The notes below the pieces were generated by a model. The model did no database searches. It was not told the origin of the DNA and worked only from the letters and a program-made list of their open reading frames with translations. 60,591 nucleotides of DNA from a virus: the IMG/VR virus record IMGVR_UViG_3300030060_005467, positions 24,851 to 85,441 of that record. One strand, given 5' to 3'. Shown in pieces: positions 46,095 to 60,591 of this stretch; the first letter of the stretch is position 1; every line of letters begins with the position of its first letter. The translations under genes and the position numbers were made by a program.

Positions 46095-46125
46095 GTTGTT
46101 TTTTATATTTTTATATGTATATTTG
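46095..46125 (+). promoter_or_regulatory. Host-type promoter for clp (GTTG-N19-TATATTTG)
   Basis: Matches the Bacteroidota housekeeping pattern. Transcription would begin near 46131, which supports the clp start at 46142 rather than 46115. Confidence 0.6.
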
Positions 46126-46141
46126 CCTAAACTTTGAATAT

Positions 46142-48838
46142 ATGAAAAGAAGGCGAGACCTTACAGACATGGTTAAGAAGATAATGAAATTAGCTCAAGA
46201 AGAAGCTAAGAATAATTCAGATAGGGAACTTAGACCAGAGCATATACTATTAGCTATTTTAAACGAAGAAGAGAATAAAAGTAATAGGGTTTTAAAGTTT
46301 ATGGGTATGGATACAGCATTGCTGTATGACATAGTTAGCGAATACTTAAGGCACACATCACTAAACTACAGTTTTGCCAGCACAACCAAATCAAGATTAC
46401 CACATGACCCAAATAGTAATAAGATAATGAAACTAGTTGATAAGGAGTCTGAAAAAATGGGTGATGTAGTTATAGATACAACGCATATAGTATTATCTTT
46501 ATTATCGGAAAAAGAATTGGATTTGGTTAAATTGTTAAAAATTAATAAGTTAAGTTACACCTCATTTAAAGAAGGCGTTATAAACTACAACGATAACCCA
46601 AAAGAAATAACTAATAAAAAAAGTGGGGATGACTTGTTTTCGGATAAAAGTAATAAAAACGAATATATAGATAAAATAATGGATAAATTTAAAAACTACA
46701 CTATGGATGAACTAAGAAATGAATTTAAAGATTCTGATATTGAAGAATTAAGAAAAAGACTAGAGAATGATATGGATGATGAAACCCCATATTTCGATGC
46801 TAAAAGCTCCCTACCATTTGAGGATGGGGATGACCTATCTTCGCCAAAGGGTAGTAAAATGAAGAGAAGTAAAAAAGAGTCAACTAAAACACCAGTATTG
46901 GATAACTTCTGCAGAGATATATCCAAAACCGCAAAGGAAGGTGGTCTTGACCCAGTTGTTGGTAGAAAAAAGGAAATAAAAAGAGTTTCACAAATACTAT
47001 CAAGACGAAAGAAAAACAACCCAATACTAATAGGTGAACCTGGAGTAGGTAAAACAGCTATAGTTGAAGGGTTAGCCATGTTAATTAAAGAAAACAAGGC
47101 ACCTAGAATTTTATTAGATAAAAAAATATATTCTTTAGACTTAGCTGCCATAGTTGCTGGGACAAAATATAGAGGTCAATTCGAAGAGAGAATGAAGGCT
47201 ATATTAGAAGAGTTAAAAGACAATAAAGATATCGTGTTATTTATTGATGAAATACATACAATAGTTGGCGCTGGAAATGCAACTGGAACTATGGATGCCG
47301 CTAACATCTTCAAACCAGCTTTAGCTAGAGGTGAAATACAAGTTATTGGTGCAACAACTCTTGATGAATTTAGAGAAAACATAGAAAAAGACGGAGCGCT
47401 AACCAGAAGATTCCAACAAGTATTAGTTGAAGAACCAACTCTTGAAGAAACTAAAACAATACTTGAAAACATAAAACAGAGATACGAAGACCACCACAAG
47501 GTTAGATATACTGATGAAGCCATAGATGAGTGTGTTAAATTATCTGATAGATACATAATGGATAGAGCTATGCCAGACAAAGCCATTGACGTATTAGATG
47601 AAGCTGGAGCAACAACAAACATAAATCACGAAGCTCCTGATAACATTAAAAAACTTGAAGATAAGAAAGAGCTTATTAAGGAAGAGAAAAATAAAGTAGT
47701 TATCTCTCAAAAGTACGAAGAGGCTGCAAAATTAAGAGACGAGGAAAAAAATGTAAACTCAGAACTAGACAAGGCTAAAAAAGAATGGATGGACAGCATG
47801 GATAAAACCAGAACTGTAGTTGGTGTTGATTTAGTAGCTGAAGTAGTCTCTATGATGAGCGGAATACCGTTAAACAAGATTTCTTCACAAGAAACTAAAC
47901 GACTAATGTCAATGGACCAAGAATTAACTGGAAAGGTTATTGGTCAAGATGATGCGGTCAGTAAAGTGGTTAAAGCAATTAAAAGAAACAGATTAGGTAT
48001 TAAAGATAAAACAAAACCAATTGGTTCATTTATATTTTTAGGTCCAACTGGAGTTGGTAAAACATACCTAGCAAAACTATTAACTGAACAGATATTTGGT
48101 GACGCAGATGCAATAGTTAGGGTTGATATGTCCGAATACATGGAAAAACACGCAACATCTAGACTTATTGGACCACCACCAGGATATGTTGGTTATGAAG
48201 AAGGGGGGCAATTAACTGAAAAGGTTAGAAGAAAGCCATACTCTGTAATTCTTTTTGATGAAATAGAAAAAGCTCATGATGACGTGTTCAACTTACTTTT
48301 ACAATTATTAGACGAAGGTCAGTTAACAGATGGGTTAGGTAGAAAGGTTAATTTTAAAAATACACTTATAATCTTAACATCAAATGTCGGAGTTAAAGAA
48401 CTTAACACATTCGGTAAGGATATGGGGTTCAAAACTAACGCATCTATAGCTAATGAAGAAGAAAAAGCTCGCTCTATTATTGAAAAGGCGCTTAAGAAGA
48501 AATTTAAACCAGAATTTTTAAATCGTATAGATGATACTGTCATATTTAATAGTCTAAAAAAAGATGATATAAATAAAATTATCTATAATGAGTTAGAGAA
48601 ATTAAAAGATAGAGTAATGGCAGAACTAAACATCACATTAAAGGTAAACAAAACCGCTATTGAATATGTTGCCGAACAAGGTTACGATGAGGCTTACGGT
48701 GCAAGACCTTTAAACAGGGCAATTCAAAAACATATTGAAGACCCTATAACTGACGATATATTAAGTGGTAAGTACTCGGAGGGTGATACTATTAAGATTT
48801 CTTTTGATAAGAAAACTAATAAAATTGTGTTGTCGTAA
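46142..48838 (+). CDS. ClpC-like AAA+ unfoldase (Hsp100)
   Basis: An 898-residue protein; the ATG at 46142 ([14 protein letters not shown]) is chosen because the longer frame starts inside the promoter. It has a Clp N-domain ('[15 protein letters not shown]'). The first AAA+ module has Walker A 'GEPGVGKTA' near residue 297 and Walker B 'LFIDEIHT' near 364. A UVR-like middle region ('[12 protein letters not shown]') follows near 523, and the second AAA+ module has 'GPTGVGKT' near 633 and '[10 protein letters not shown]' near 702. The short middle region is ClpC/ClpA-like, not ClpB-like. 'KDMGFKT' near 760 occupies the place of the ClpP-docking loop. It could refold or unfold proteins, or feed them to host ClpP. 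Confidence 0.92.
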
Positions 48839-53319: not shown

Positions 53320-54483
53320 ATGAAAGAAAGTCAAAAAGTAAAAGAAAAATACTATAAAGATGGTCACGTAATGCTAGGTGAACACTACTCAAGTAAAGTT
53401 AAAAAACTACATGAACTATATGAAGCTGATAAATTTAAAGCTAGAGTTTATTTTATGAATGAAAGGCACGACTTTAATAACTCCAGATTAGTTTTTTTTA
53501 TGAAAAAGAATGGAGATTTTGATATTGTTAATTTTGTAAGAACTTACGGAATTAGTAAAACCAATAGAATATACTCTAGAGAAAAAAGAACATTTCAACT
53601 TAAATTTAGTAAGAATAAATTTACATTAATACATTTAAACAGGGTATCAGCACCGACAATTGCAAACATTGCAAACAAATCAATTGGGTTTACTGAGACT
53701 TATGACTTACCAAAATGTATTCTTGGTATTATTGGTAACAGATTTGCGTGGGTTAGATTTATTACAGAAAATTATTCACTACATAACATAAGCCTTAATA
53801 CCTTTATTAATAAAAAACTATTTACACTTAAAAAAGCATTAAAACACGCACTTAAATGTCCATACCCAGTGGCTAAAATGTTAAACGAGTCTAAAACAAC
53901 TCATAACGGAATTTCTTATCTTAAATACTACATGGATTACATTTCAAACGTTGAGTCACTCAAACCTTCTTGGGTTAATGAAAAATTTGATTTATTCTAC
54001 GACTCTTTAAAGATGGCCAAAATTGTAGATAAAAAAGTTAATGCGTCTTGGTCAGATAGACGATTGAAAGAAGAACATGATAAATGGAGTAAAATAATAA
54101 ATGACGTAATGTTCATTGATTGCGATAGAAAAATGAATATAACCCAAGTGTTTGAAGACTTTTCAAAGTTTTCAAAATATAAGATAATAACAACAACCAG
54201 AAGACTTGCGGAAGAAGGTTTGACGATGAACCACTGTGTGGGTAGTTATGTTAGTAAAATAGAGGCTGGTCGTAGTGCTATATATGTTTTACCTGGACAT
54301 ACATTTGAAGTAACTAAAAAATGGTATAAGGGGGAAGAACTTTTGTCATTAGGTCAAATAGTCACTTACGGGAATGGTAAAGCTGATAATAAAATTAAAA
54401 AGGAAGTTGTTGAGGCTATTAAAAACTTTAATGGAGGGATAAAATCAACCGACACCCTATTGGATGAAATATTCCCATTTTAA
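53320..54483 (+). CDS. PcfJ-like protein
   Basis: A 387-residue basic protein. The C-terminal core reads 'RLAEEGLTMNHCVGSYVSKI' near residues 292-311, followed by an Ala-Ile-Tyr-Val-Leu strand. This is the hallmark of the PcfJ family, first named in conjugative plasmids and common in phages and mobile elements. The N-terminal two thirds are Lys-rich helices and strands. The biochemical role of PcfJ proteins is not settled. It has its own host-type promoter and ends at a shared terminator. Confidence 0.8.
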   Translation: MKESQKVKEKYYKDGHVMLGEHYSSKVKKLHELYEADKFKARVYFMNERHDFNNSRLVFFMKKNGDFDIVNFVRTYGISKTNRIYSREKRTFQLKFSKNKFTLIHLNRVSAPTIANIANKSIGFTETYDLPKCILGIIGNRFAWVRFITENYSLHNISLNTFINKKLFTLKKALKHALKCPYPVAKMLNESKTTHNGISYLKYYMDYISNVESLKPSWVNEKFDLFYDSLKMAKIVDKKVNASWSDRRLKEEHDKWSKIINDVMFIDCDRKMNITQVFEDFSKFSKYKIITTTRRLAEEGLTMNHCVGSYVSKIEAGRSAIYVLPGHTFEVTKKWYKGEELLSLGQIVTYGNGKADNKIKKEVVEAIKNFNGGIKSTDTLLDEIFPF

Positions 54484-57966: not shown

Positions 57967-58230
57967 ATGAATAAAAAAACACCACTCACGACTGAAGAAA
58001 AAAGAGTTTTACATGAAATTAAAAAGAAGTATAATAACGATGGGTTTAGCGTATTATTAGACGATTATAAAGTATCTAAAGTAAAAGTAAAACGTTCCCA
58101 TAAAAAAACGATATCAGATAAAATTATTGATATGTTTATAGATGGTGAATGCCCAGATACGATTAGTAGGGAATTAGAAGTAAAAAGGAGTGAAGTTGAT
58201 AAAATTTTAATGGAATATGGAGCAATATAA
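57967..58230 (+). CDS. Unknown small protein with HTH-like C-terminus, 87 aa
   Basis: A basic protein. The C-terminal 'ISDKIIDMFIDGECPDTISR' and 'ELEVKRSEVDKILMEYG' have the helix-turn-helix spacing of small DNA-binding proteins. The N-terminal half is basic and linker-like. It overlaps the next gene by 14 bases. First gene after the promoter at 57881. Confidence 0.5.
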   Translation: MNKKTPLTTEEKRVLHEIKKKYNNDGFSVLLDDYKVSKVKVKRSHKKTISDKIIDMFIDGECPDTISRELEVKRSEVDKILMEYGAI

Positions 58231-58420
58231 AACAACAAACATGGAAGGTCAAGTAATATATTATGAAGGGTTCGTAGCTCAAAAAGTTGTTATGGGTCGA
58301 ACAATAGTCTTTAAATTAATGAAGGGTGATGAAACAATAACGCACTTGAAGTGGGATGAAAACCCACACGATAACATATCATTAGTTTGTAAATACATAG
58401 ATAACATTAGTAAAAATTAA
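58217..58420 (+). CDS. Unknown small protein, 67 aa
   Basis: A small mixed protein ('VIYYEGFVAQKVVMGRTIVF', 'ITHLKWDENPHDNISLVCKY'), probably beta then helix. It overlaps the gene before it. No domain recognised. Confidence 0.45.
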   Translation: MEQYKTTNMEGQVIYYEGFVAQKVVMGRTIVFKLMKGDETITHLKWDENPHDNISLVCKYIDNISKN

Positions 58421-58425
58421 ATAAA

Positions 58426-58677
58426 ATGAACAAAAAGGACTACGAATTAATTAAAAAATTAATAAACAGTAACACGGAGTACTCACTAACATCAAGAAAT
58501 GAAGCAATGGATAAGTTAGATAAGTATTTAAATGAAAGTATAAGTTATGATACCGCACAAGAATACGGAGAATACTGTTTTTCTGCCACAAAAAGAGGTA
58601 TGCTACCAATAGCAATAAATATTTTTGTGAAAAAACCAAAATGGAAATACAAACCATCAAAAAGAATTGGAAAGTAA
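58426..58677 (+). CDS. Unknown small protein, 83 aa
   Basis: A helical basic protein ('YELIKKLINSNTEYSLTSRN', 'YGEYCFSATKRGMLPIAINI') with a Lys-rich end. It is followed by a TAATG overlap with the next gene. No domain recognised. Confidence 0.45.
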   Translation: MNKKDYELIKKLINSNTEYSLTSRNEAMDKLDKYLNESISYDTAQEYGEYCFSATKRGMLPIAINIFVKKPKWKYKPSKRIGK

Positions 58678-58850
58678 TGTTTGATGTAAGTAAATACATA
58701 AATGAATTAGAAGAGAAAAAGCAAATTTTAAAATGGCTTATAGATGGTAGAGAAATACATTGTTTACCAATAAGTACAGTTGGTTATTTGACTAAAGAAA
58801 GAATTTGCGAGTTATATAACGTGGAGTTAAATTATTTTATTGCATTATAA
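58677..58850 (+). CDS. Unknown small protein ending in an attC-like site, 57 aa
   Basis: The ATG at 58677 overlaps the previous stop (TAATG) and is preferred over the longer frame from 58641. The product (MFDVSKYINELEEKKQILKW) has a helix and a small C-terminal beta segment. Its stop codon lies inside the R'' box of attC-like site 1, as is common for integron cassette genes. Confidence 0.5.
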   Translation: MFDVSKYINELEEKKQILKWLIDGREIHCLPISTVGYLTKERICELYNVELNYFIAL

Positions 58851-58905
58851 CGTTCCGTATATGATTTGCGGAATGGAATGGAGTTAATTATATACATTGT
58901 TATAA
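58845..58905 (+). repeat. attC-like site 1
   Basis: TTATAAC at the left pairs exactly with GTTATAA at the right. Inside, GTATAT (58857-58862) pairs with ATATAC. The stop of the preceding gene lies in the left box. Length 61. Confidence 0.6.
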
Positions 58906-58915
58906 AAAGTTTATT

Positions 58916-59131
58916 ATGGAAGAATTTACACAACACGATTGGAATCATATGCACGACTGCATATTACACGCAACTTGGAACACAACGAAGAATAAATCTA
59001 CAAGGAGAGAACTTGTGGAAATTTTCAATAAACTACCAGAAGATATGAAAAGAGATGCTTACGAATGGGGTATGTCTGATACACTATGGCGAGATAAGTT
59101 TATTGAATGGTATGAGCAAAATTGTTTATAA
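58916..59131 (+). CDS. Cassette 1 gene, unknown, 71 aa
   Basis: An acidic, Trp-rich helical protein ('QHDWNHMHDCILHATWNTTK', 'DAYEWGMSDTLWRDKFIEWY'). Its stop lies in the left box of attC-like site 2. Only 15 bases separate its start from the cassette boundary. Function unknown. Confidence 0.55.
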   Translation: MEEFTQHDWNHMHDCILHATWNTTKNKSTRRELVEIFNKLPEDMKRDAYEWGMSDTLWRDKFIEWYEQNCL

Positions 59132-59180
59132 CGTTTAGTATAAGACCCGTTTTTTCTATGGGTTTTATACATTGTTATAA
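59126..59180 (+). repeat. attC-like site 2
   Basis: TTATAAC pairs with GTTATAA, and GTATAAGACCC with GGGTTTTATAC except for one position. The loop is TTTTTTCTA-like. Length 55. The most regular of the four. Confidence 0.65.
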
Positions 59181-59239
59181 CCAGTATGGTTTATTTAAGA
59201 TAAAACTTTACTTTTTAATAATAAAATATATATTATAAA

Positions 59240-59458
59240 ATGGATATTAATAATTTTATACCATCATTTGGTGATTTCATAGTTTATTGTGCTGAATGTA
59301 ACATACAAAAGGATAAAGCATTAATAATGATGATGGAATTTTTAGATAACCCTAAAAAATATGACCACCCAGAAATAATTAAAAGTTATTTAAATGAGAA
59401 TTTAGATATAAATCAATATATACAATTAAAAAATAGGATATGGAAAAAAGTGAATTAG
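59240..59458 (+). CDS. Cassette 2 first gene, unknown, 72 aa
   Basis: A helical acidic protein ('FGDFIVYCAECNIQKDKALI', 'YLNENLDINQYIQLKNRIWK'). It overlaps the second gene of the cassette by 19 bases, so they are translated together and may form a pair. Function unknown. Confidence 0.5.
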   Translation: MDINNFIPSFGDFIVYCAECNIQKDKALIMMMEFLDNPKKYDHPEIIKSYLNENLDINQYIQLKNRIWKKVN

Positions 59459-59784
59459 TTATTAAATACGAACAAATGTATTTTTTGGATAAAACCAAAG
59501 AAGAAAATAAGCAAGAATTATCTGAATTATTCGAAAACTTCAGTAAATACCTAATAAACATAGGGGAAGAAAATTTATTATGGGGAAAATGTGATTTTGC
59601 GATTTTATTTATCCCCTTAATCAAAAAATTATATGAGGAATATGGTGAAACCGATTATAAGGGTGTTTACGTTGATTTTAAAAAATGGTATAATAGAGAA
59701 GGTGTTCACTGGGAAGAAGAAATAGTTAATATTGATTTATTGGATTATATGGGTTTATATATTCAATATTATAAATCGAAGTGA
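59440..59784 (+). CDS. Cassette 2 second gene, unknown, 114 aa
   Basis: A Glu/Lys-rich helical start and a Trp/Tyr-rich second half ('VYVDFKKWYNREGVHWEEEI', 'LLDYMGLYIQYYKSK'). It ends 14 bases before attC-like site 3. No domain recognised. A paired small gene could be a two-component defence or toxin system, but nothing in the sequence shows this. Confidence 0.5.
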   Translation: MEKSELVIKYEQMYFLDKTKEENKQELSELFENFSKYLINIGEENLLWGKCDFAILFIPLIKKLYEEYGETDYKGVYVDFKKWYNREGVHWEEEIVNIDLLDYMGLYIQYYKSK

Positions 59785-59798
59785 TGTCGTAATATTGT

Positions 59799-59859
59799 TT
59801 ATAACGCTCCAGCTAAACGTCTGCGACTGGAAGGAGTTGCGTTTTAGCTCGTGTTAGGC
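59799..59859 (+). repeat. attC-like site 3
   Basis: Left box TTATAAC, right box GTTAGGC, the classical GTTRRRY form. AGCTAAACG pairs with CGTTTTAGCT with one extra T, like the unpaired base of attC sites. Length 61. Confidence 0.6.
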
Positions 59860-59893
59860 ATAGTAATATTATTAACAGATAAAATATATAAAA

Positions 59894-60232
59894 ATGGGAA
59901 TGTATACAGAATTTATTATAGATGTGAAATTGAAAGATAGCACACCAAAAGAGGTTATTGATTGCGTTAATTGTATGATGGGAAATATAGATAATAATTT
60001 ATTTACCTATGAAAGAAACCCTTTAAATAATTATTGCGGTAGTGAAACATTTGAGAAGAGTTTTGAAGACCTACACTTAAAAGCTCACGGAGATATAAAA
60101 AACTATTGGAGTGATATTGAAAGGTTTGTAGACTTCTTAAAGCCTTATGTTGAAACAGGTTTTATTGATAATGAAGCTTTTGCCAAATCATTATATGAAG
60201 AGTTTGACGAATGGGAGTTTTATTATGCCTAA
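59894..60232 (+). CDS. Cassette 3 first gene, 'MGMYTE' family protein, 112 aa
   Basis: The opening 'MGMYTEFIIDVKLKDSTPKE' is shared by a family of small unknown proteins seen in phages and bacteria. The rest is mixed with 'NYWSDIERFVDFLKPYVETG' and an acidic, aromatic end. Function unknown. Confidence 0.6.
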   Translation: MGMYTEFIIDVKLKDSTPKEVIDCVNCMMGNIDNNLFTYERNPLNNYCGSETFEKSFEDLHLKAHGDIKNYWSDIERFVDFLKPYVETGFIDNEAFAKSLYEEFDEWEFYYA

Positions 60233-60269
60233 TGATACAACTAAACACAGTTATTAACGAATTAAAAAG

Positions 60270-60524
60270 ATGAATATGACTTTTAAACAGAAAGATGAAA
60301 TAATTGATATACTGGAAAACTTACCATATTGGGATACTTGCCCCCAAGATTATAAAGACAGAATACCTGAATTAGTTAAAGCACTAAACCAAGTTAATAA
60401 TGGTGTTTTAGATGATGTTATGGCTTTGTTTAAGCCTAATGAACTTTGGAGAATGGCACAAAAATATAACTGTGATGATTTTACTCAAATGATAGAGCAA
60501 AGTAAAAGATTAAATAAACTATAA
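60270..60524 (+). CDS. Cassette 3 second gene, unknown, 84 aa
   Basis: A helical acidic protein ('QKDEIIDILENLPYWDTCPQ', 'DDVMALFKPNELWRMAQKYN'). Its stop lies in the left box of attC-like site 4. No domain recognised. Confidence 0.5.
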   Translation: MNMTFKQKDEIIDILENLPYWDTCPQDYKDRIPELVKALNQVNNGVLDDVMALFKPNELWRMAQKYNCDDFTQMIEQSKRLNKL

Positions 60525-60577
60525 CGAATTGTATATGATTTGTTGAGGAACGAAATAAAATATATACGGTGTTATAA
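60519..60577 (+). repeat. attC-like site 4
   Basis: Left box CTATAAC, right box GTTATAA. GTATATGATTT pairs with AAATATATAC if one G is left out, the position of the unpaired base in attC sites. Length 59. Only 14 bases of the next cassette lie in the window. Confidence 0.6.
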
Positions 60578-60591
60578 GCCGTTTTAAAACT

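Follow-up and report, generated by a model that had tools for sequence, protein, structure and literature searches.

An array of imperfect palindromes at the right-hand end of a viral contig raises the question of whether a T4-like phage carries an integron-style cassette array and, if so, what moves its cassettes. The window, the whole stretch of 60,591 nucleotides that was analyzed, covers the right-hand part (60.6 kb) of a viral contig of 85,441 bases. The phage qualifies as T4-like, since T4-type PHROG families were matched by its major head protein, its prohead protease, its portal, and its terminase. Among named phages, Flavobacterium phage immuto and a few others come closest, at ~30–44% identity, and the TerL of the best named phage is only 29.5% identical. 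The host is likely a member of the Bacteroidota, judged from these named relatives and from promoter and start contexts that we read as Bacteroidota-like. The closest relatives are the syntenic contigs G003 and G006, and neither contains the sites described here. The phage also encodes a 907-aa Clp-type AAA+ ATPase (46115–48838; PHROG "ATP-dependent protease").

Table 1. Sites, genes, and contig end at the right-hand side of the window.
Feature	Positions	Strand	Details
Four ORFs ahead of site 1	57967–58850	+	First, homologue in phage L269 (40%); other three, none in the relatives searched
Site 1	58845–58905	+	TTATAAC...GTTATAA; covariance model E 7e-7
Cassette ORF, 71 aa	58916–59131	+	Weak matches to PHROG families of unknown function; stop within left box of site 2
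Site 2	59126–59180	+	TTATAAC...GTTATAA; E 8.7e-9; left box matches right box of site 1 (7/7)
Cassette ORF, 72 aa	59240–59458	+	61% homologue in related phage L289, outside any array
Second ORF of the same cassette, 114 aa	59440–59784	+	No family match
Site 3	59799–59859	+	TTATAAC...GTTAGGC; E 0.0012; left box matches right box of site 2 (7/7)
Cassette ORF, 112 aa	59894–60232	+	PHROG 4334 family; protein 84% identical in phage contig G001/L153
Site 4	60227–60423	+	GCCTAAT (60227–60233)...GTTATGG (60417–60423); long ORF-containing core; overlooked in the earlier note
ORF, 84 aa	60270–60524	+	First ~50 residues inside the site 4 core, remainder in the next gene part
Site 5	60519–60577	+	CTATAAC...GTTATAA; E 5.9e-9; left box matches right box of site 4 (6/7)
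Contig end	60578–60591		Attachment site and recombinase predicted past this point

The window contains five attC-like sites (Table 1). Sites 1, 2, 3, and 5, read directly from the sequence, have inner arms of at least 6 bases, left spacers of 5 bases, and right spacers of 3 bases, and a single unpaired base lies in an inner arm of sites 3 and 5. Gene stops fall within left boxes at 58848–58850, 59129–59131, 60230–60232 (site 4), and 60522–60524. The exact box pattern occurs twice in the window compared to 0.11 expected and reached two in no shuffle; four sites fall inside 1.8 kb compared to at most one in 60 Markov shuffles. Covariance model R1 was trained on 30 sites from other phage arrays that obey the box rule described below, and the window sequence was excluded. 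It returned four matches in the 60.6-kb window (E 5.9e-9 to 0.0012), exactly sites 1, 2, 3, and 5, with no further match elsewhere in the window. A 260-kb set, composed of 20 kb from the rest of the contig plus sequence from relatives, gave no match. These data establish the sites.

Site 4 closes the chain of boxes. Its left box pairs with the right box of site 3 at 6/7 positions, and the junctions across the window read GTTATAA/TTATAAC, GTTATAA/TTATAAC, GTTAGGC/GCCTAAT, and GTTATGG/CTATAAC (slashes within such sequences mark junctions). L214, which comes from a different viral contig, has a site whose core matches that of site 4 at 93% identity over 193 bases. The shared stretch runs from the left box (TAA) to the right box (GTTAT), and the genes differ on both sides.

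An earlier note, made from the sequence alone, had described four attC-like palindromes in one orientation (sites 1, 2, 3, and 5) with three gene stops in left boxes and one unpaired inner-arm base in the last two, and these claims held, with the stop in site 4 now added as a fourth. Its observation that the left box of site 3 fits the start of its own cassette, and not its own right box, also held; the box pairs with the previous right box at 7/7 positions. Its site count was incomplete, and the missed site 4 explains why its final site appeared to fit the rule only partly. The covariance search that it suggested gave the four significant matches above. Its statement that the window lacks an integrase is correct and extends to the whole 85,441-base record, in which no integrase or integrase candidate was found.

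The cassette genes were compared with other phages. The cassette with the 112-aa ORF recurs in an unrelated phage between other neighbors; its DNA homology with G001, a contig with three arrays and more than 20 sites in total, extends from the region of the GTTAGGC box as far as GCCTAA, and the sites on either side differ. No window cassette ORF has a homologue within the recombinase loci described below, and a genome scan with one cassette protein gave a single short, uninformative match. The left edge of the array is placed between ~58230 and 58845 because only the first of the four ORFs ahead of site 1 has a homologue in relatives. On the right, the contig stops 14 bases past the last site, so the array is open. 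ORFs that begin inside a site and cross its right box were seen in the window (60270–60423), L153 (4115–4351), and L329 (6108–6380), with the motif ..ADVS../..DDV..; site swaps would therefore exchange protein N-termini.

One alternative is a chimeric contig in which assembly joined a phage genome to a piece of a bacterial integron. The array does sit at the end of the contig, and no array is present in L269 and G006, the nearest relatives across the junction. Against this, another viral contig encodes one of the cassette proteins at 84% identity, a related phage has a homologue of a second cassette gene, and TerL-related phage contigs bear arrays. We consider a chimera very unlikely.

To measure the box rule, 115 pairs of adjacent sites were taken from 45 viral stretches. 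In 70 of these pairs (61%), the variable three bases of the left box agree with the right box of the preceding site; they agree with their own right box in 11 (10%) and with the next one in 9. Pairs discordant between the previous-box and own-box tests number 63 versus 4, and shuffled pairs obey the previous-box rule at 8%. Cassettes shared between phage arrays have their breakpoints at the boxes. Many IMG/VR contigs are fragments and a few are possibly bacterial. A first pattern scan of viral contigs was set aside, as true sites were few among its returns and most were another repeat family or chance matches. A different palindromic repeat (TTATAACGTTTTGTTATAATATGTCC...) is common to many viral contigs (L005, L011, L014, L019, and others) and lacks attC-type inner arms.

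These results bear on the idea that the palindromes separating the small phage genes are transcription terminators, RNA elements, or MITEs. In its favor, the hairpins sit between genes and their predicted folding is only moderately stable. However, an Rfam scan found no family, and the breakpoints of shared cassettes lie at boxes. Terminators or MITEs would match their own box, and they are contradicted because the left boxes in phage arrays follow the previous right box. Ordinary palindromes are all but excluded. The window contains an integron-style cassette array in a T4-like phage, and the box rule is also found in dozens of other phage arrays.

The boundaries of the mobile unit were taken from recent exchanges between phages, which are 98.6–99.7% identical and bounded at AA/C of the left box. 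The L214/L229 exchange (368 bases, 98.6%) and the L205/L253 exchange (758 bases, 99.6%) are both bounded by left boxes on the two sides. A filled target in L208 (TTATAAC/GGTTTGG...ACCTAAC/ACCAAGC) can be compared to the empty target in L261 and L200 (TTATAAC/ACCAAGC). These left-box bounds, together with the Freya insertions described below, indicate that the mobile unit in the relatives is a site plus its downstream gene rather than a gene plus its site. Some older pairs instead break at right boxes (window/L214, the left side of window/G001, and L223/L253), which leaves room for a second crossover point or for homologous exchange from site to site. Co-inheritance of gene versus site over 307 units was mixed, with too few independent pairs. 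An attachment-site piece, ACCAAGCTAAGAAACGTAA, is duplicated on either side of one cassette in L208 (minus strand), and a G001 gene outside its arrays (L159 14050–14482 = G001 54050–54482) lies within the array region of L250 (3959–4395)/L246 at 92% DNA identity.

The polarity of the phage arrays is the reverse of the classical one. At their right end, phage arrays close with a half site, such as TAACTATTATATATC, TAACTATCATATATA, or TAACTAGCATATAGA. In recombinase-linked phage arrays 224 ORFs point toward the recombinase and 8 away, compared to ~24 away and 6 toward beside classical IntI. In our reading, the unpaired inner-arm base of the window sites is in the arm that a classical attC would have for the opposite polarity. 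Single-strand folding of the bottom strand was no better than that of the top, which leaves the strand used undecided.

A TIGR02249 profile search over 49 virus records gave only one sub-threshold recombinase, and this was the lead to a phage family. In G033 a tyrosine recombinase ORF directly follows the terminal half site of the array. The Freya recombinase (see below) is 36% identical to that of G033, and as queries the two find 71 viral contigs of up to 349 kb. Among 46 loci with at least 2 kb upstream of the recombinase, at least two sites occur in 40 and a chained pair occurs in 37, whereas none of 68 loci with at least 2 kb downstream has a chained array there. An attI-like attachment site, xxTAACTAnnATATA in most relatives, lies just before the recombinase gene. 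These data show where the recombinase gene sits relative to the array.

The phage recombinases score below the TIGR02249 cut-off. Their nearest NCBIfam models are NF040815, TIGR02225, and TIGR02224 (XerA/XerC/XerD), also below cut-off. The distance from box I to HxLRH is 86–91 residues in the phage enzymes, 133–134 in the classical IntI measured, and 93–95 in two Xer proteins. The additional domain is a defining feature of IntI (PMC9668308), and the stretch that the phage recombinases lack corresponds to it. In the tree the phage enzymes form one group (98/94) separate from 19 Pseudomonadota IntI (100/99); IntI from other phyla were left out. Plasmid-borne bacterial relatives branch beside the phage group and not with IntI.

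Two plasmid loci were noted. In a Chryseobacterium plasmid (NZ_CP041688; L454, 4743–10545), a 347-aa recombinase from the same broad family is followed by an array whose sites are 132–148 bases long; neighboring boxes chain in 3/4 cases and the genes point away from the recombinase. An Acinetobacter plasmid with tet(X3) carries a relative of the phage recombinase (~48% to L347) between ISVsa3 and tet(X3) (L457, 2967–3632). No array was seen at this recombinase, and genes similar to it recur on other Acinetobacter plasmids.

A search of named phages with a G001 array led to the Polaribacter phages Freya_1–10. The deposited assemblies of seven isolates (1, 2, 5, 6, 8, 9, and 10) were compared. 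Their sequence is common up to the array and differs by whole units, most of them directly before the "integrase" gene. The gains are +842 (1 to 2), +902 (2 to 5), +472 (5 to 6), and +307 bases (9 to 10), each exactly at AAC/ACCCCTATAAC before the integrase, a junction also written AAC/ACCCCTATAACAACAATAAG. Freya_8 equals Freya_10 minus one internal 902-base unit. Thus, in the Freya isolates and in L208/L261 cassettes are gained exactly at the attachment site and lost by excision between sites; the comparison covers those phages and not the window phage. Only 2/4 of the Freya junction boxes have an exact upstream partner, and model R1 did not detect Freya's own sites. To Bartlau et al. 2021 (PMC8776804), the Freya integrase indicated temperate potential; their main text does not use the word "cassette." In Danklef_1 and Danklef_5 (L432 and L433) the recombinase is cut to its C-terminal part, the neighboring region is equal in size, and the length difference lies elsewhere. 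This combination fits the expectation that cassette gain requires an intact enzyme.

The remaining alternative is an inert CALIN, with cassettes that came from a host chromosomal integron and are moved, if at all, by a host IntI in trans. The window record has no recombinase and fits the definition of the phage CALINs of Qi et al. 2023 (PMC9892861), at least two attC sites with the integrase not in the record. That study described CALINs in virulent phages, and showed that some of them are substrates for IntI1; among the phage attC sites that this enzyme can recombine is one from P12002L, whose sites match model R1. Against an inert CALIN, a phage-encoded recombinase lies beside sites of the same type in the 37 of 46 loci above, also in contigs of the window's TerL type. 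Freya isolates vary right at the phage recombinase, and model R1 found no sites in 71 kb surrounding 20 classical intI genes. An inert CALIN is therefore unlikely.

We favor as likely the explanation that the window shows the distal part of an integron-like cassette array that is carried by the phage and served by a Xer-like phage recombinase. In this mechanism, the Xer-like tyrosine recombinase would pair the folded attC-like site of a circular unit with the simple attI-like site before its own gene, and strand exchange would occur at the conserved GTT (AAC) triplet. The inserted unit would be a site, the following gene, and xxxAA. New cassettes would enter beside the recombinase, with all genes facing it, and recombination between two sites would delete an internal unit. 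The recombinase as the actor is inferred, with no experiment here that shows cassette movement by it, and the folded strand as substrate is likewise an inference. Several observations count against this explanation: the record shows neither a recombinase nor an attI, several viral array contigs lack a recombinase as well, some pairs break at the right box, Freya's own sites escape model R1 and only two of its four junction boxes have exact upstream partners, and the unpaired inner-arm base lies in the arm expected for the other polarity. Several contigs with a recombinase and an array carry a terminase related to that of the window, four at 46–48% TerL identity and thus closer than any named phage, and the expectation that the window phage has the same machine rests mainly on this. 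Predicted beyond the contig end, and absent from the record, are a tyrosine recombinase of ~270 aa and an attI-like TAACTAnnATATA. We infer that the recombinase lies past this end or has been lost, as in array contigs without one; no recombinase was seen in array contigs G001, G040, and G002 either.

The phage system shares with class 1 and chromosomal integrons the imperfect palindromes with xxxTAAC...GTTAxxx boxes, the cassette box rule, a junction at the GTT triplet, a single attachment site for insertion beside a tyrosine recombinase gene, and excision of internal cassettes. Unlike these integrons, it has a recombinase without the IntI insertion, placed outside the sampled IntI clade; its cassette genes face the attachment site, and its recombinase gene reads on from the array and not divergently. 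Unlike XerA/XerC/XerD, the phage enzymes are tied to cassette arrays and an attI-like site. The phage CALINs of Qi et al. (P12002L, PH101, and TJE1) are likewise attC-like clusters in virulent phages, and P12002L has five window-type sites, but no phage recombinase, attI, or cassette movement was described there for virulent phages. Freya and Danklef (Forsetiviridae) are HK97-type phages of 44–49 kb and not T4-like, although Freya has the recombinase, attachment site, and varying cassettes.

The broader claims of the earlier note can now be judged. An integron-style array in a T4-like phage is supported by the box rule and by shared cassettes with breakpoints at boxes. The note had placed cassette boundaries at G/TT; this is corrected, as exchange in relatives occurs at AA/C of the left box. 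It had asked for cassette variation in other phages, which is present in the Freya isolates and in L208 versus L261/L200, and ordinary terminator or MITE behavior, which it named as a refutation, is contradicted by the discordant pairs (63 versus 4). Its remark that few reports of phage attC arrays exist held. Such arrays were already known from Qi et al., though not in the recombinase-bearing form. No description of a phage-owned recombinase of this kind or of inverted cassettes was found in the open-access literature searched; subscription papers and preprints were outside its scope. The complete, inverted, phage-owned form was not found described.

A bolder reading, which we also regard as likely, is that Bacteroidota phages, from 44-kb siphophages to phage contigs of ~350 kb, own a complete integron-like gene-capture system with a separate Xer-like recombinase family that lacks the IntI domain and with inverted cassettes. 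The window phage would be one of the owners, with its recombinase just past the contig end. Detection tools that demand the IntI domain miss these elements. The arrays point to a recombinase that captures cassettes although it lies beyond the IntI clade sampled here, which touches the question of whether structured sites require the IntI domain. Lytic and large phages would gain, lose, and trade accessory genes singly by a dedicated route, and isolated phages are available for testing it.
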